A program made the translations under genes and the position numbers. Below the pieces are notes generated by a model, which saw nothing but the letters and a program-made list of their open reading frames with translations, did not search any database and had not been told where the DNA came from. Positions 4,093 through 45,428 of a stretch of 47,615 nt of DNA are shown piece after piece. How positions within the stretch are numbered: position 1 is the stretch's first letter; each line of letters opens with the position of its first letter. The stretch is from an uncultured Eubacteriales bacterium (GTDB lineage Bacteria > Bacillota_I > Bacilli_A > RF39 > UBA660): assembly GCA_900319955.1 (NCBI GenBank), contig ONQM01000001.1, forward strand, positions 1 to 47,615, written 5' to 3'.

Positions 4093-4896
4093 TTATTTTG
4101 ATAATGTAATCACTGGTCTTATTCCAATTACAAATCCAGCATTTCTAGCATCTAGAAGTATGCTACTTGCATTTATATCAACTGTCCATGCTAGTTTTCC
4201 TGATGCTGTCGTTGACGTATAATAACCAAAGTAGCTTTCATTTTGTATATTATCCCAAAGATATGAACAATTTGATGATGTAAGATCATATGATTTTGCA
4301 GCATCAAGTGATGAAAAGTTTGTAACTAGACAAGATGCTGCAACCTCACTTGCCATAGGAAGTCTTGCAGCATAACCTGAATAGTTTATATTATTAAACA
4401 TGCCTACTTCACTTACATTTGTCCAAGTACTTGTCTTTGGTAAGTGTTTAATTGCATTTAACGGTCCAAGATTTGCATTTTCTATCCCATCTTCTTCAGT
4501 TGATGGTTCTGAAAAAGATGCTGAACTATAATCTCTATCCATTATTAAATTTACTCTTCCATCATCTTCTGCATCATTAAGTACATAGAATTTATAAGAC
4601 TTACCATCACCTAAGTTATTACAATTATATATTGTTCCCTTTTTATAAGGTGATTTACTATTTGTTTTACAAACTTCTTCTTCACTTGATGCATCTTTAT
4701 ATAAATTGCCCTCTTTATGCATCTTTATATTTTCTTCTTCTTTTTGAATATTCTTTTTATCACTTTTATTTACTTCGTAATTTTCTACTTTAAAGAATTT
4801 ATCATATAAAACAAGTCCACATAAAACTATTATAACTGCTATTAATATCATAATGGTTGCATATGCTGTTTTTATTTTCTTATCATTTTTTTCCAT
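4093..4896 (-). CDS. Membrane-anchored surface protein with C-terminal RPVI motif domain
   Basis: N-terminal anchor: a short lysine-rich cytoplasmic part followed by a transmembrane helix at about residues 12-32 (ATIMILIAVIIVLCGLVLY). A charged, likely extended linker follows to residue 75, then an extracellular domain of about 190 residues ending in FVIGIRPVITLSK. The RLPMASEVAA and GIRPVITL elements recur in secreted proteins of gut Firmicutes related to DUF6273-type domains (recognition from memory). Four cysteines (CKTN, YNCNN, ASCL, SNCS) could pair outside the cell. No catalytic motif is visible. Its neighbours give no functional hint. Confidence 0.6.
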   Translation of the reverse strand: MEKNDKKIKTAYATIMILIAVIIVLCGLVLYDKFFKVENYEVNKSDKKNIQKEEENIKMHKEGNLYKDASSEEEVCKTNSKSPYKKGTIYNCNNLGDGKSYKFYVLNDAEDDGRVNLIMDRDYSSASFSEPSTEEDGIENANLGPLNAIKHLPKTSTWTNVSEVGMFNNINYSGYAARLPMASEVAASCLVTNFSSLDAAKSYDLTSSNCSYLWDNIQNESYFGYYTSTTASGKLAWTVDINASSILLDARNAGFVIGIRPVITLSK

Positions 4897-4940
4897 ATTC
4901 TTTCTCCTACGATACTATTTTATCATATTTTTTTATTTTT

Positions 4941-7900
4941 TTACTTAACTTCTCTTATTTTACTGTCAAGTATTGAATATAAATATGTATATACTTTTTT
5001 ATGAGTTAAAGATTCTATATATTTCCTATATCCATTTAATTGATCATCATAGTGTTGGTCATCTATTCCTTTTAGTTTATAGTCAAATATATATAAGACA
5101 TTATCATATTCTATCATTAAATCTATTATACCATGATATTTTACACTATTTTCCTCATAAATAAATTCATACTCTTTATATATTTTACCGGTTTTTATTT
5201 TATTTATGATGTCACTATTTATAAATTTATTTATTTTATCTTTAATATAATCATTTATATTAAATAGTGTAAAGTCAGGATTTTCAAAGTCTATTTCTTC
5301 AAGTATTTTATGACACTTTGTACCAAGTTCTAAAAGATTTTTTTCATCTTTAGTTTCTATTTTTAATTCTTCTTTTGAAAAGTGTTTTTCTTCTTCTTTT
5401 TTATTATTTAACTTTATTTCTTTTACATCTAGTTTAATATTACTTTTATTTATATTATTTTCTTTTTGACTTATAATATAGTTTTTTGTTAAATTAGGTT
5501 CTTTTAATGTTATATATTCTTCTAGATTTCCAAGTATACTATTAAGCATTAAATAAAATGATGAATATTTTGATCTTACTGAATCTGGTACTAATTCACT
5601 ATAGTTTTCTCCTTCTCCATTTTTCATTACTATTACGATTTTTTCTCTGCTTCTTGTAAGAGCAACATATAAAAGTCTTATTCTTTCCCCAATATCTTCT
5701 AATTTTTCTTCTCTATCATAAAGTATTCTTGTTATTAAACTTTTATATCCATAATTAAATATTGGTATCATAAATCCATATTTTCTATCAAATGCTATTT
5801 TTCTTCTTGAGTCTTCTCTATTTGCACCATCACTCATTGATCCAAAGTAGCATACTGGAAACTCAAGCCCTTTTGATTTATGAATTGACATTATTTTTAC
5901 ACTATCTATGTCTTCTAGTGTTTTATCATAAGACATTTTATATCCATTTTTTATTGTTTCATCTAAATATTTAAGTACACTATTATTGTTATACTCTTTT
6001 TTTTCTAGACTATCTATTACATCAAATAAATAATATATAGATTTTTCTTTTTCATCTATCATTTCTGTTTTTAATATATTATAGTTTATATCAAATACAT
6101 CAAGCACTTTTAAATAGAATTCTTTTGGTGAAAGATTTATAAAATCATTTTTTAAAGATATTCCTTTATTATATATATCTGTTTCTTTAAAATTATTTTC
6201 TTTAAATATTTTTAGTATTTCTTCATCTGTTAAATTACTTAAAAATGATCTTGCAATAGACAAAAATGCATATTTAGTATTTTCATCAAATATGTTATTT
6301 GATATATCACTTATAAATTTATAAATATTATGTATAACATATATAAATGGTGTATTATTGATATTTTCTTCTCTATATATTGTTATAGGAATGCCTAAGT
6401 ATTCAAATATTTTTTTATACAAATCAAAATCTTTTTTCTTTGATAACAATACTACAAAATCTTTATATGATATTTTTCTAAATTTATTTTCATCTTTATC
6501 AAATATCATTTTTCCTTCATTTACTCTTTTTTTAATATCATCTGCTATTATAAAGATTTCTTTTTCAGTATTTGTATATTCTTTAGTTTTATCTTCATCA
6601 TATGTTAATATATCAAGATTATATTCTCCTTCTTTATAATCATTATAAGTAGTGTTACCAAATACTGCTTCTCCATCTTCTTTATAGTTTGATCCTCCTA
6701 TTTCTTCATTCATGACAAGATCAAATACTTTGTTAATATTATTAAGTACTTCTTCTCTACTTCTAAAGTTTTTATTTAAGTCTATTTTTATTCCACCATC
6801 TTTTTTACTATATTTTTTATATTTTTCTCTAAAGATATTAGGATTTGCATTACGAAATCTATAAATAGATTGTTTAACATCTCCTACCATATAAAGATTA
6901 TTATTTGAAATTAAATCTAATAGTTCTTCTTCTATATCAGATGTATCTTGATATTCATCTACCATTATTTCATCAAATGATTTTTTTACATCTTCTCTTA
7001 TAGACTCATTTTCTTTTAATAAGTTAATTACCATTATACTAATATCAGAAAAGTCATAAAGAGATTTTTTCTTTCTTTCTTCATCGTAGAATTTATATGT
7101 ATTTGTTATTATTCTAATTAATGCTTCTGCATCAGGTTTTGTTTTCATAATATCTTCTATCATATATTCTTCTTTAGGATAGTTTGATGTTAGTTTTTCT
7201 ATTTCTTTTTTTACTGATCCCATATCATCATATATTTTTTTAGCATCTACAGGAAATTTATATGCTTTAAATGATAAGCTTTCAAAGAATGTTTTTATAT
7301 CACTATATGTTTTTACAGTATTTATATTTTTAAATGCTTCAAGTAATTTATCTAATGTTTTACCACTTAAATGGTTTTCTAATTCTTCTAGAAGGCTTTT
7401 GTATTTTTTAAATAAATCATATACAAGACTTATGTATTTGTCTTTATATTTAGTTAAATTTTCTATATTATAAAATGCACTTATATAACTTTTTAAATAT
7501 TCATCTCTATCTGACATTAAATCAAGTTTAGAAAGTATATTTAGTACATTACCTTTAAAATCATCATCACCTTTTAAAGACATATTTGTAATTAAGTTTT
7601 CAAAGTCTTTTAAGTCTTTTTGATATTCTATATCAAGTGCTTTATCAAGTGATTTTCTTTTAATTATATCTAGAAGTGTACTATCACATATTTCTATATT
7701 ATTGCTTATATTTAATGCATAATGATATTTTTTTAATAAACTTAATGAGAAACTATCAAATGTTGTTATATATGCTTCATCTACATATTTAGCTTCTTCT
7801 AAAAAGTTATTTTCTATTAGGACTTTTCTTACTCTATCTTTCATTTCTTTTGCAGCATCTTTTGTAAATGTTAAAAGAAGAAGTCTTTTTACAGTAAAAC

Positions 7901-41230: not shown

Positions 41231-42352
41231 ATGGCAGTTGGTGTAATTGCAGAATACAATCCATTTCATAATGGACATCTTTATATGCTAAAGAAAATAA
41301 AAGAAATGTATCCTGATGATACAATTATATTAGTACTTGGTGGAAACTTTACACAAAGAGGAGATGTTTCAATAATTGATAAATGGACTAAGACAAATAT
41401 TGCTAAACACTATGGAATAGATTTAGTTATAGAACTTCCACTAATTTATAGTATTCAGTCTGCTGATTATTTTGCAAAAGGTGCACTTGAAATACTTAAT
41501 AGTTTGAAAGTAAACAAATTAGTTTTTGGATCAGAAATTAATGATATAGATCTTTTAAAAGAAATTGCGAGTGTTCAGCTTAATAATAATGAACTTGATA
41601 AGCTTGTTAAAATATATATGCGTATGGGTTTAAACTATCCATCAAGTCTTTCTAATGCAATATATGACATAACTGGTAAGAAAGTTGATACTCCTAATGA
41701 TTTACTCGGAGTCTCTTATATGAAAGAAATACTTAAAAATGATTATAATATAGAGGCAGTAATAATTAAAAGAGAAAACAACTATCACTCTAAAGAAATA
41801 AAAGAAATAACAAGTGGTGAAGCTTTAAGAAAAGCTTTAAAAGAAGGTAAAGAAATAAAATGTTCTGTTCCAGAGTTTACTTACAAAAATTTAAATAATC
41901 TTCACTTTATGGATGAATACTTTATTCTTTTAAAATATAAAATATTAACAGAAAAAGACTTATCTAAATATCATGGAGTAGAAGAAGGCATTGAAAATAA
42001 AATAAAAAAAGAAATAATTAATTCATCTAATTATGATGAACTAATAAATAAAGTTAAATCAAAAAGGTATACTTATAATAAGATAAAAAGGATTCTTCTT
42101 TATATACTTCTTGATATTACTAAAAAAGATATGAAAGAAATAAATAATTGGAACTATATTAGAATATTAGGTTTTAATGAGAAAGGAAGAAAATATTTAA
42201 ATAAAGTAAAAAAAGATTCAGGCCTAAAAATAATATCTAAGTTTGAAAGAAATAATAAGCTTTTAAATTTAGAGCTTAAAAGTACTATCATTTATTCTAT
42301 TCCTCATAATGAACTAAATTTAATAGAAAAAGAATATAAAAATAATTTGTGA
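41231..42352 (+). CDS. tmcAL: tRNA(Met) cytidine acetate ligase
   Basis: Nucleotidyltransferase-like enzyme that uses acetate and ATP to make N4-acetylcytidine at the wobble base of elongator tRNA-Met. The N-terminus is VGVIAEYNPFHNGHLYMLKK with the HxGH motif, followed by LGGNFTQRGDVSIIDKWTK and AKHYGIDLVIELPLIYSIQSAD, all typical of YlbM/TmcAL. SGEALRKAL is the conserved SG-x-x-IR-like element. Length 373 is slightly short of Bacillus (about 415), mostly at the C-terminus. The ATG at 41231 has AAGGAG 8 nt upstream and is preferred over a GTG at 41222. Confidence 0.94.
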   Translation: MAVGVIAEYNPFHNGHLYMLKKIKEMYPDDTIILVLGGNFTQRGDVSIIDKWTKTNIAKHYGIDLVIELPLIYSIQSADYFAKGALEILNSLKVNKLVFGSEINDIDLLKEIASVQLNNNELDKLVKIYMRMGLNYPSSLSNAIYDITGKKVDTPNDLLGVSYMKEILKNDYNIEAVIIKRENNYHSKEIKEITSGEALRKALKEGKEIKCSVPEFTYKNLNNLHFMDEYFILLKYKILTEKDLSKYHGVEEGIENKIKKEIINSSNYDELINKVKSKRYTYNKIKRILLYILLDITKKDMKEINNWNYIRILGFNEKGRKYLNKVKKDSGLKIISKFERNNKLLNLELKSTIIYSIPHNELNLIEKEYKNNL

Positions 42353-42358
42353 AAATGA

Positions 42359-42388
42359 AAAGATATCTAATTTTAGATATCTTATTTA
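42359..42388. terminator. Bidirectional terminator after tmcAL
   Basis: AAGATATCTAA (42360-42370) pairs with TTAGATATCTT (42373-42383), followed by T-rich sequence; shared with the convergent surface-protein gene. Confidence 0.8.
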
Positions 42389-44244
42389 TTTGTTATAACT
42401 ATTCTTGTTCCATATGATGCATTTGCAGACCCATCTGCTGCTTTCATTGTAAATATACTTGATGTTGTATCAGATACACTATCACCTCTCACTATGAAGC
42501 TTGCTGCAGCACTTGGTGCAGTAAATGCACCATTATATAAATTCTTAGTAACGGTAAATACATTACTTGCAAGTGATGAATCATCATAATTATCATAATA
42601 TTTAGAATCAGGAAGTGTTGTAAATCCGGAGTTACCTACTGTTCCATTATAAAGTCCCATAACATATTCTGATGAACCACCAACCATATCATATATTCCT
42701 GTTGTGTTACCTGTTGTTGATGCTCCACTAGCTGTTAAATAAGATGCATTTGAATTTTTTTCAATTGCTCCGTTTATACCATATGATGATTCTGCAAGTA
42801 TTGCGGCCATTTCCCATTCAGAATTCTTTGCCATATGAATATCTCCATTAAATGAACTAATGTTTGTTGTCATACTACTTATTGCATTTGAAAGTGTACT
42901 TACGTTTGCAGATCTTAATGATGCAACTCCTGGAAGTGATGTTACAGCACTTGCTGTCCCTGTTGCTTCATATTTGGAAATATAGAATCCATCTAAGTCT
43001 GTATCAAATGTAAATGCTCCACTTGTATAGAAGTTTTCTGGTGTTGAACCTGTATATACTACATCTCCATCTTCTGATGTTGTTTTACTTATGAATCTTA
43101 CATTAAATGGTAAAGTTTTATATGAATATGACATTCTTGGTATCCAAACAAAGTATCCAAGTACCTTACTACCATCAAGACTTGTACCTACTGGACTATT
43201 ATTTAATGTATCAAGATATGTACTATCATTTATCAAAGCAATATTTGCCCAATTTTTATTTGTGTAATTATACCAGTTGTCAGTTACTGTTCCATCTGCT
43301 TTTACAAATGATCCTTTTGCACTATCATATGTTACTGGAACCATTCCTGCAGAAATATTAGGTTCATTTGGTGTTAGACTTAACTGTTCTCCTTTCATAT
43401 TAATTGATGCTGCAAAGGAAAGTCCAGATGAATCTGTTGCGACAGCTTCATCAATCCATACTCTTAAATCAAAATTAATTGTCTCATTTGGATCTATTGT
43501 ACCTGTTGCTAGAACTCTTCCATTATCAGTAGTTGTTAATGTATTAAGTGCTTTAGCACCTGTATAAATGTTTTTATCTTTTACTAAACTATATTTTAGT
43601 TTGTCATCACCAATTCTTGTTTTTCCATCTGCTAAATCATTGTCTTTTAAATAAATAGTATATGATGATGCAAGTGTTCCATTATTTGTTATACTAAATG
43701 AATATGGACTACTTTTTAATCCTGTTGCATCTTTTACTGGGTAAGAGTTTGCTAGTGAAAGAGATGCAGTATCTTTAAGAGCTAGTGAAAGATCTCCACT
43801 TGTAATTGTATTTGTTTTATCACTTGCGTTAGTTGCAGATAGCCATGCATAACTTGACATAGTAAATGTAAGTGCAACAGCTGCTATTAAAACAATTATT
43901 GCAATAGATTTTTTACTTAAATTAATATTTTTAAAGTTAAATTTTTTATTTTTACTCTCCTTATCTTTATTAAAGTCTATTATTATTGTACTTGTATTTT
44001 CTTCTTTGTTTTCTTTTAATTCTTCTTTATTTTCTTCGTTTTCTATTATTTCTTCATTACTTGTTTTGTTTAGTGTGTATCCATTTTCAGTTTTAGAAAT
44101 TATAGAGGCATCTTCTAGTTCTTTTAAATTTTCATTTAAAGCATCAAGTTCTGATACTTCAATTAGGTCAAGCTCAGACTCAAAATCATCTAGTGTTACT
44201 GCATTAGTACTATTTTCAAGTATGGCAAGAATTTTGTCTCTCAT
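42382..44244 (-). CDS. Composite transmembrane protein: winged helix, TM, TasA-like region, FGE-like domain
   Basis: Residues 1-62 look like a winged helix: MRDKILAILENSTNAVTLDD, helix SELDALNENLKELEDASI and wing ISKTENGYTLN, as in the N-terminus of RNase R. A Glu/Lys-rich linker leads to a transmembrane helix at about 112-130 (KKSIAIIVLIAAVALTFTM). Next, SSYAWLSATNASDKTNTITS and GDLSLALKD match the mature start of TasA/CalY-type filament proteins. From about residue 310 the protein resembles the formylglycine-enzyme/C-type-lectin fold: GYFVWIPRMSY, GFYISKYEATG, NSEWEMAAILAES, GIYDMVGGSSEYVMG, ASFIVRGDS. The catalytic cysteines of true FGE are absent. Could be a transmembrane DNA-binding sensor or simply an anchored surface protein. 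Confidence 0.7.
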   Translation of the reverse strand: MRDKILAILENSTNAVTLDDFESELDLIEVSELDALNENLKELEDASIISKTENGYTLNKTSNEEIIENEENKEELKENKEENTSTIIIDFNKDKESKNKKFNFKNINLSKKSIAIIVLIAAVALTFTMSSYAWLSATNASDKTNTITSGDLSLALKDTASLSLANSYPVKDATGLKSSPYSFSITNNGTLASSYTIYLKDNDLADGKTRIGDDKLKYSLVKDKNIYTGAKALNTLTTTDNGRVLATGTIDPNETINFDLRVWIDEAVATDSSGLSFAASINMKGEQLSLTPNEPNISAGMVPVTYDSAKGSFVKADGTVTDNWYNYTNKNWANIALINDSTYLDTLNNSPVGTSLDGSKVLGYFVWIPRMSYSYKTLPFNVRFISKTTSEDGDVVYTGSTPENFYTSGAFTFDTDLDGFYISKYEATGTASAVTSLPGVASLRSANVSTLSNAISSMTTNISSFNGDIHMAKNSEWEMAAILAESSYGINGAIEKNSNASYLTASGASTTGNTTGIYDMVGGSSEYVMGLYNGTVGNSGFTTLPDSKYYDNYDDSSLASNVFTVTKNLYNGAFTAPSAAASFIVRGDSVSDTTSSIFTMKAADGSANASYGTRIVITNK

Positions 44245-44276
44245 TATTATTCACCTTCTATCTTACATTATACTAT

Positions 44277-44300
44277 AAAAAAAGTCTTGAGAAAAGACTT
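44277..44300 (-). terminator. Terminator after comN-like gene
   Basis: Minus strand AAGTCTT, loop TTCTC, AAGACTT followed by TTTTT. Confidence 0.75.
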
Positions 44301-44319: not shown

Positions 44320-44526
44320 TTACACATTTTTAATGTCAAATTTCATTATATTTAAAACTACATCGTAAAGTGTTAAATTATGACTTTTACTAAAAACATT
44401 TTTAGAAAGGCTATTCCAAATATCTTCTTTACTAATATTATAACCAAATCTTTTTAGTTCATTACATTTTGAATTTAGTGCAGGTTCTACTCTTTTTTTT
44501 AAATCATCAAGTGAATCAAATTCCAT
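44320..44526 (-). CDS. ComN-like post-transcriptional regulator
   Basis: A 68-residue helical protein resembling the Bacillus ComN family (post_transc_reg): VEPALNSKCNELKRFGYN, then ISKEDIWNSLSKNVFSK and LTLYDVVLNIMKFDIK follow the family order. In Bacillus, ComN controls stability of comE mRNA and is found at division sites and poles. No competence gene is near here. It follows xerD by 8 nt in an operon with the unknown gene at 45413. The assignment rests on pattern and length, so it is moderate. Confidence 0.65.
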   Translation of the reverse strand: MEFDSLDDLKKRVEPALNSKCNELKRFGYNISKEDIWNSLSKNVFSKSHNLTLYDVVLNIMKFDIKNV

Positions 44527-44534
44527 ACTTCCTC

Positions 44535-45428
44535 CTATTTCATTTTAGCTCTTGGAAATGCTTTGTAATAAACATCCTTAAGATGAGCTTCAGATACATG
44601 TGTATATATGCTTGTTGCAGCGATACTTTCATGTCCTAAAAGTTTTTGTACTGCTAAGACACTAGCTCCTTCATTTATTAGGTGTGTTGCAAATGTATGT
44701 CTTAACATATGTGGTGATATATTTTTATCAATACTTGTTTTCTTAATTAATCTTGTAAGTATATCTCTTACACCACGCTCTGTAAGATGTGTTCCTCTAT
44801 TGTTTATTAATAAATAATCTAAATTATTTTTATTAAGCTTAGGATATCCATTATTTAAATAATCATTTAAAGCATCTTCACAGTACTCACCATAATATGT
44901 AACTCTTTCTTTATTTCCTTTTCCAAGAATAATTATTTTCCTTTCTTTTCTATCTATATCAGATACTTTAACACTACAAAGTTCTCCTACTCTCATACCA
45001 CTTGCATATAAAAGTTCAAGTATTAGTCTATCTCTTTTACCTAGTGGTGTTTTTAAGTCAGGTGCTTTAAAAAGCTGTTCCATTTCATTATATTCAAAGT
45101 ATCTTGGAAGACGTTTTTCTTTTTTAGGTCCACTTACATATACAAATGGATTATCAGTAGTATATCCTTTATTTAAAGTATAATTATAAAATGTTCTAAG
45201 TGCAGATAAATTCCTGCATACTGAAGAATTTTTTTCATTTAAATCTTTCTTTAAGTACATTAAATATCTTCTAATATCGCCATACTCAATTTTTTTATAA
45301 TTTAAATTTTCTCTTTTTAAAAAATTATTAAACTTTTTTAAATCATCTTTATAATTAATAATTGTGTATTCTGAATAATTTCTTTCATATTTTAGAAAGT
45401 CAAAGAATTTATTTAGTACTTCTTCCAT
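44535..45428 (-). CDS. xerD: Tyrosine recombinase XerD/XerC type
   Basis: Site-specific recombinase, probably resolving chromosome dimers at dif. The N-terminal SAM-like domain is FFDFLKYERNYSEYTIINYK; the catalytic domain shows Arg in LLYASGMRVGELCSVKVSDI, Lys in LGKGNKERVTYYGE, HxxR in ISPHMLRHTFATHLIN, His in VQKLLGHESIAATSIYTHV with the nucleophilic Tyr in IYTHV. Length 297 is standard. No dif-like sequence was found here and there is no second recombinase or phage gene, so a housekeeping role is likelier than an integrase. Its start overlaps the upstream unknown gene by 16 nt. Confidence 0.9.
   Translation of the reverse strand: MEEVLNKFFDFLKYERNYSEYTIINYKDDLKKFNNFLKRENLNYKKIEYGDIRRYLMYLKKDLNEKNSSVCRNLSALRTFYNYTLNKGYTTDNPFVYVSGPKKEKRLPRYFEYNEMEQLFKAPDLKTPLGKRDRLILELLYASGMRVGELCSVKVSDIDRKERKIIILGKGNKERVTYYGEYCEDALNDYLNNGYPKLNKNNLDYLLINNRGTHLTERGVRDILTRLIKKTSIDKNISPHMLRHTFATHLINEGASVLAVQKLLGHESIAATSIYTHVSEAHLKDVYYKAFPRAKMK

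Follow-up and report, generated by a model that had tools for sequence, protein, structure and literature searches.

The window analysed here comprises 47,615 nucleotides from the genome of an uncultured Eubacteriales bacterium (G000 in the comparisons below). A gene on its reverse strand, 42382-44244, encodes a protein of 620 amino acids plus the stop codon (orthologue L009/L072), and both the coordinates and the domain order given in an earlier sequence-only reading were upheld: a winged helix is followed by an acidic linker, one transmembrane (TM) helix, a TasA/CalY-like part and an FGE/C-type-lectin-like part. The winged helix, of the HTH_12 type and sharing homology with the RNase R N-terminal domain, occupies residues 1-60 (44065-44244; like all following features, on the reverse strand). 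The charged linker (residues 61-110, 43915-44064) is acidic over residues 61-98 (net charge -7), and the juxtamembrane residues 99-112 are basic (net +5). They lead into a modelled TM or signal-anchor helix at about residues 111-130 (43855-43914), which is conserved across paralogues, and into a candidate SipW-type cleavage site, S131-Y132-A133/W134 (43843-43854), where the cut would fall after A133. A β-rich segment resembling TasA/CalY (camelysin) spans residues 134-290 (43375-43845), and residues 291-620 (42385-43374) form a predicted FGE-subtype C-type-lectin-like ectodomain; the entire 620-residue protein contains no cysteine.

The fusion gene is flanked by a terminator-like hairpin at 44282-44300 and by a convergent gene whose end is at 42352. 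Two synteny anchors precede it, a gene for a XerC/D-type recombinase (44535-45428) and a reading frame of 68 amino acids (44320-44526), the latter separating the recombinase from the gene in question in the window genome and in two relatives, G006 and G005. The start codon is well supported: a ribosome-binding site of the rnr type, GAAGGTGAA (44250-44258), stands a few bases upstream, and the stretch from a TATAAT box to the ATG is conserved in G006. The sole in-frame ATG, GTG, TTG or CTG among residues 2-134 is that of M129, within the TM helix. An Rfam search of the window gave no match.

The sister species G006 (RUG594, ONSL01000057.1), an uncultured Clostridiales metagenome-assembled genome (MAG) separate from that of the window, carries the whole architecture with 67% identity at the matching locus, after a Xer-type recombinase and a 70-amino-acid frame, so that the search for this architecture in related genomes, suggested with the sequence-only reading, had a positive outcome. 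Since a separate MAG contains the matching protein at the matching locus, chance and an assembly chimera can be dismissed. G005 (RUG793) has a syntenic orthologue without the winged helix, in which the first ATG lies 38 residues ahead of the hydrophobic stretch; in G001, G002 and G004, the recombinase locus runs on into a gyrB/parE-like gene and the fusion gene is absent there. A scan of the genome contigs found no species with the gene beyond G006 and G005. The distance from the first ATG to the hydrophobic stretch has a median of 11 residues among 76 distinct TasA-type reading frames, an automated list from which the G006 fusion is missing (it was read directly instead), and is 112 in the window protein; the other large value, 94, comes from a frame truncated at the end of a contig. 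In the rest of the TasA-type paralogues surveyed, the start lies near the TM helix and there is no winged helix. Because among the genomes surveyed only G000 and G006 carry the fusion, and the G005 orthologue and the surveyed paralogues are without the domain, a single origin of the fusion, later than the split from G005 and in the ancestor of G000 and G006, is most likely. Homologues without the winged helix had been named beforehand as a possible objection; every other homologue surveyed is indeed of this kind, but this dates the fusion rather than refuting it. The fusion is young, being carried by two related rumen bacteria and not by a congener with the matching locus. The rnr gene of the window genome is separate and intact.

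AlphaFold2, run with two sequences, predicts a confident winged helix over residues 1-60, consisting of three helices (2-11, 18-24 and 30-45) and a two-strand wing (49-52 and 55-58), with a mean pLDDT of 90-94 per ten-residue block, in agreement with the fold ascribed earlier to residues 1-62; the linker (residues 62-110) is modelled as disordered. The best PDB fold match found by Foldseek is B. subtilis RNase R (8cdv_C; probability 1.00, E 9e-3, 24% identity), i.e., the winged helix of the enzyme on a 30S degradation intermediate, and the matches ranking after RNase R include the DNA-binding regulators NiaR and CggR. Searches with the single sequence are weak (TIGR02063 RNase_R, E 0.0032; HTH_12, E 0.12), and the Pfam HTH_12 score of 12.8 bits is below the cut-off of 21.4. 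A profile built from the N-termini of both fusions matches the N-terminus of RNase R in each of the 8 genus genomes (E 6.5e-15 to 1.5e-8); besides RNase R, its strong matches are the two fusions, with no third fusion in these eight genomes. In the wider family, 195 of 291 genomes are matched; among the matches listed, bar the window itself, the frames have about 680-860 codons, about the size of rnr, and nearly all have about 700-750, and most of the listed matches align from position 1, as expected for RNase R. The winged helices of the fusions align end to end with those of genus RNase R at 34-47% identity, e.g., MRDKIIAILTSSDKPLTSYDLEAELNLIDVDEV of the G006 fusion with MRDELIAILGASDKALSSVELEGKLNLIDADEV of G006 rnr. 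In a maximum-likelihood tree, both fusions form one clade (92/86) placed among the genus rnr sequences, although with 64 columns and long fusion branches this nesting is weakly supported. By profile and predicted fold, the winged helix is real and belongs to the RNase R lineage rather than to the OmpR or transcription-factor lineage, which bears out the RNase R-type domain proposed ahead of the single TM helix.

Some further observations concern RNase R-like proteins and database searches. A second RNase R-like paralogue (L097-L100; in G005, G000, G006 and G007), with frames of 740-777 amino acids and a different N-terminus, is found in part of the genus and shares 33-42% identity with canonical RNase R. 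A phmmer search with the full fusion protein and with residues 1-66 against the PDB revealed no relative; fimbrial and Ski7/FKBP matches were dismissed as compositional or non-significant.

The likeness to rnr extends into the DNA upstream of the start codon. The hairpin, read directly from the sequence, has the arms AAGTCTT and AAGACTT followed by a T-run, and resembles the region upstream of G006 rnr. A TATAAT -10-like box (44267-44272) lies inside TATAGTATAAT, a sequence also present in front of G006 rnr, and AAGTCTTTTTTTTATAGTATAA together with GAAGGTGAA is common to the upstream regions of the fusion and G006 rnr. Local alignment of the 60 bases upstream of the fusion with those upstream of G006 rnr scores 59 for G000 and 63 for G006, compared with best background scores of 44 and 38 among 27 other window genes; the likeness is carried by about 50 A+T-rich bases, among them such widespread elements as a poly-T terminator and TATAAT, and the background score of 44 is close to some rnr upstream scores (45-51). 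An AAGGTGA ribosome-binding site precedes the genus rnr genes and both fusions, and none of the 27 other window genes checked (0/27). The -10 assignment derives solely from conservation with G006 and rnr; no consensus -35 partner was found for the TATAAT box, and a promoter scan gave sites no more numerous than in shuffled sequence. The terminator scan, which demands three G-C pairs, did not call the hairpin. The simplest reading of the upstream likeness is a duplication of an rnr 5' block. Upstream of the rnr gene of the window genome itself (L088:60-180, G000:C61), a structured stretch richer in G+C, GGGTAGCGACTATCCAGCACAGG...GTCCGTGAGGACTTC, takes the place of the G005/G006-type sequence and is possibly the end of a mobile element.

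Comparison of G000 with G006 shows that the winged helix is kept as a protein by purifying selection, under looser constraint than in rnr. In the fusions, whose winged helices share 49-51% identity, the domain has a dN of 0.38, a dS of 1.27 and a dN/dS of 0.30, with values of at least 1 in 0.4% of bootstraps; the ratios of the TasA-like (0.34) and lectin-like (0.26) parts are comparable. The winged helix of rnr shows a dN of 0.17 and a dN/dS of 0.098, and the rest of rnr a ratio of 0.044. Of the columns that are always hydrophobic in genus RNase R, 17/22 stay hydrophobic in both fusions, but only 3/9 invariant polar columns are kept, and the wing motif YHxNKD (YHxNKDRYM), invariant in genus RNase R, is lost in both. 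This selection could reflect a specific function beyond maintenance of the fold. The net charge of residues 1-60 is -10 in the window protein and -9 in the G006 fusion, compared to -4 to -9 in RNase R, and the presumed recognition helix carries -5/-6; the DNA-binding domain of HrcA from a congener, used as a control, has a net charge of +5. Set beside the RNase R domain (HTH_12, PF08461; 8CDU/8CDV), the N-terminus of the fusion has in common the homologous residues 1-60, the fold, the position from residue 1 and a similar upstream promoter region and ribosome-binding site, whereas the cold-shock (CSD), RNB and S1 domains are absent, with other domains in residues 134-620, YHxNKD is lost, and the domain is somewhat more acidic and evolves fast.

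The full-length AlphaFold model, based on three sequences, is poor beyond the winged helix (pLDDT 40.8, pTM 0.25). It shows a TM helix at about 111-129 and a β-rich stretch at 153-264, is otherwise unreliable, and gives high-probability fold matches for the winged helix only (RNase R, SSo2273); the fold of residues 134-620 is consequently taken from family profiles. The TM helix and the TasA-like part belong to a large protein family within this bacterial family, and own-genome paralogues were retrieved with E 1.6e-18 to 1.5e-14. Among 12 aligned paralogues, three match camelysin M73 (best 3.9e-5), and some match a SipW-dependent matrix-protein model. The window segment itself scores 13.2 bits against the SipW-type signal peptide model TIGR04088, below the cut-off of 19; the proposed TasA/CalY-like segment therefore stands through its paralogues and falls short by its own score. 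SSYAW is invariant in the three nearest orthologues, and a SipW-type peptidase (TIGR02228) is encoded in 8/8 genus genomes, including that of the window (C29:10199-10675). The signal anchor resembles a SipW-type signal peptide, and, judged from the sequence, this peptidase could cut after SSYA133, separating the winged helix from the ectodomain. Cleavage of the TasA signal peptide by SipW in B. subtilis frees an N-terminal strand, with which the next subunit is completed (PMC9674648); if the fusion protein is processed likewise, its mature form would be without the winged helix. The likeness to the TasA/CalY (camelysin, M73) biofilm fibre proteins consists of a signal anchor ending in SSYAW before a β-rich segment, M73 matches among the paralogues and a sipW-calY type gene cluster in the window genome; unlike these proteins, the fusion has an extra cytoplasmic part of 110 amino acids and a C-terminal lectin-like domain, and its segment scores below the family cut-offs. 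In that cluster (L040, G000:C29, 885-2846), the SipW-type peptidase gene has a CalY-like gene and another TasA-like gene as neighbours, and the group looks like a fibre operon.

The C-terminal part of the window protein (residues 290-620) matches FGE with E 5e-4, with PF03781 below threshold, and such a match is found in 5/19 family members. The best PDB match of the family profile is TaqVP (5vf4, E 5e-4; the AlphaFold model is poor across the ectodomain), an FGE-subtype C-type-lectin protein that is the variable protein of a diversity-generating retroelement (DGR) (PMC6328139). Besides this match, the family alignment has the C-terminal R-G-G/D ... R-x-V-x-x ending in common with such proteins. 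An identity as formylglycine-generating enzyme (FGE-sulfatase, PF03781) was rejected, as the catalytic cysteines are absent; the FGE-like domain without catalytic cysteine that had been proposed is thus borne out in its lack of cysteine and favoured by the family profile, but not by the score of the window protein itself. The ectodomain family is common to pseudopilin-type and plain-TM proteins.

These findings are compatible with a history in which a TasA/CalY-type surface gene captured the 5' block of rnr, SipW releases the ectodomain, and the winged helix is a passenger turned docking module, and this account as a whole is considered probable, with considerable room for doubt. In the ancestor shared by the window species and G006, the terminator, -10 region, ribosome-binding site and about 60 winged-helix codons of rnr would have been duplicated in front of a TasA/CalY-type FGE/lectin gene; the winged helices are homologous and the upstream DNA is similar, and that rnr was the source and that a single event took place is presumed. 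The rnr-derived promoter and start would drive expression. From the position and flanking charge of the TM helix, the product is predicted to be a type II membrane precursor with a cytoplasmic winged helix. A SipW-type signal peptidase probably cuts after SSYA133, which would release a surface adhesin or fibre-like subunit and leave the winged helix on a membrane stub. The winged helix, with its retained fold and purifying selection, would have come as a passenger with the start and would now be kept as a folded, acidic protein-docking module, not as a reader of DNA. Donor domain, donor regulatory DNA and acceptor family are all identifiable, as in a clean 5'-end capture from a housekeeping gene by a surface gene. 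The fusion is built from known parts, and its origin is more interesting than the signalling first proposed for it.

For the winged helix, protein docking is likelier than DNA binding, and packing against a cytoplasmic protein, put forward earlier as an alternative, fits better than a ToxR-like role. The partner could in principle be that of RNase R: in B. subtilis, RNase R is anchored through its helix-turn-helix (HTH) to the 30S subunit close to uS11, and less truncated 16S rRNA co-purifies when the HTH is deleted (PMC10901742); the HTH of E. coli RNase R is needed for recruiting HslUV or Lon (PMC12320835). Both roles are directed at a protein or the ribosome, and neither involves the reading of DNA. 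It is rather unlikely that this role was simply kept, with the winged helix binding the 30S platform (uS11/h23 region) or recruiting Lon/HslUV and so keeping ribosomes or a protease at the membrane by way of the precursor or the stub. Homology and fold, as well as purifying selection, are consistent with it; however, the Y-H-x-N-K-D wing motif is lost in both fusions and the domain evolves faster than its rnr counterpart, which makes intact inheritance of the RNase R interfaces doubtful, and the E. coli HTH is not required for ribosome association according to work cited in PMC12320835. The reading given most weight is consequently that of a passenger retained as a folded module for docking. 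Should a partner exist, the domain would be a case of an RNase R winged helix at work outside RNase R.

The winged helix may also have come along with the promoter and start codon and have no function beyond harmless N-terminal folding. The copied block appears to include regulatory DNA plus the domain, the core residues are kept while the surface and wing have diverged, and the domain is present in only two species. Such a domain would nevertheless be difficult to reconcile with a dN/dS of 0.30 (bootstrap 0.004 for values of at least 1) and retention across species at 49-51% identity, and trimming of an unneeded 110-amino-acid extension might be expected in an exported protein, so that this possibility is judged unlikely. 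More ambitious than the preferred docking module, and decidedly improbable, is the proposal that an RNase R-derived docking domain was recruited to the cytoplasmic face of the membrane, where each exported subunit would leave or carry a module that gathers 30S subunits, partners of RNase R or an ATP-dependent protease and so couples the export of surface proteins to the turnover of ribosomes or proteins.

The sequence-only reading had suggested ToxR-type signalling from a surface domain to DNA. In such a sensor, a ligand at the surface would be recognised by the ectodomain, and the protein, remaining uncleaved, would pass the signal across the TM helix to a DNA-binding winged helix. The layout of a cytoplasmic winged HTH, a disordered linker, a single TM helix and a large ectodomain does resemble ToxR and CadC (PMC5430869), NiaR and CggR are among the later fold matches, and selection maintains the domain. 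In contrast to the OmpR-lineage domains of these regulators, the winged helix is of RNase R rather than transcription-factor descent; it has a net charge of -10, with -5/-6 on the presumed recognition helix compared to +5 for the HrcA control, and has lost the wing motif. The anchor looks like a SipW-type signal peptide with a probable signal peptidase site, the peptidase is encoded in the genome, and there is no adjacent target operon, as the gene has a terminator-like hairpin on one side and a convergent gene on the other. Direct signalling from the surface to DNA is therefore very improbable; a protein in which a winged helix precedes a TM helix is not necessarily a transmembrane transcription factor. 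That translation really begins immediately ahead of the TM helix, or that rnr and a surface gene were joined in a contig chimera, is hardly credible: the other TasA-type paralogues surveyed all start near the TM helix, but there is no in-frame ATG, GTG, TTG or CTG between residues 2 and 128, an independent MAG has the matching structure at the matching locus, the window genome has its separate, intact rnr, and selection acts at the codon level.

The window genome also contains a DGR (L084, G000:C70:1-12000, about 334-513 and 936-1592) with a reverse transcriptase of 429 amino acids, an Avd-like frame, a variable region and two template copies, in which mismatches between variable region and template fall almost exclusively at template adenines; its variable domain is small, Cys/Asn-rich and not an obvious C-type lectin or Ig fold. 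A second DGR-like locus (L083, G000:C27:20000-32000, 4138-7177) encodes a reverse transcriptase of 373 amino acids, an Avd-like frame and an exported-type protein, and has an Asn-rich template-like segment (..WNANVFNVNGGGALDDNNATNSNGVRPE); no clear variable region adjoining this template was found, and its target may lie elsewhere. Unlike DGR variable proteins, the fusion gene has no convincing adenine-biased template match at these two loci: its score against the C70 template is 10 (shuffled maximum 13, 15 shuffles), and the score of 16 against the region between the variable-protein and Avd frames of C27 is weak, with a shuffled maximum of 13 from three shuffles only. Across the family, at least three kinds of export start are found fused to the FGE/lectin-like C-terminal domain, a TasA-like signal anchor, a GFTLxE pseudopilin start and a plain TM helix (L015, L016 and L032 versus L011-L013, L022 and L033). 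TasA-like and FGE/lectin-like exported paralogues are unusually numerous for the small genomes of G001, G011, G021 and G028, with 29-49 matches in 1.1-1.6 Mb. Within the window, a further exported protein is encoded at 4093-4896 on the reverse strand, and its C-terminus, ..GIRPVITLSK, is like the ends of the exported proteins of the fusion family.
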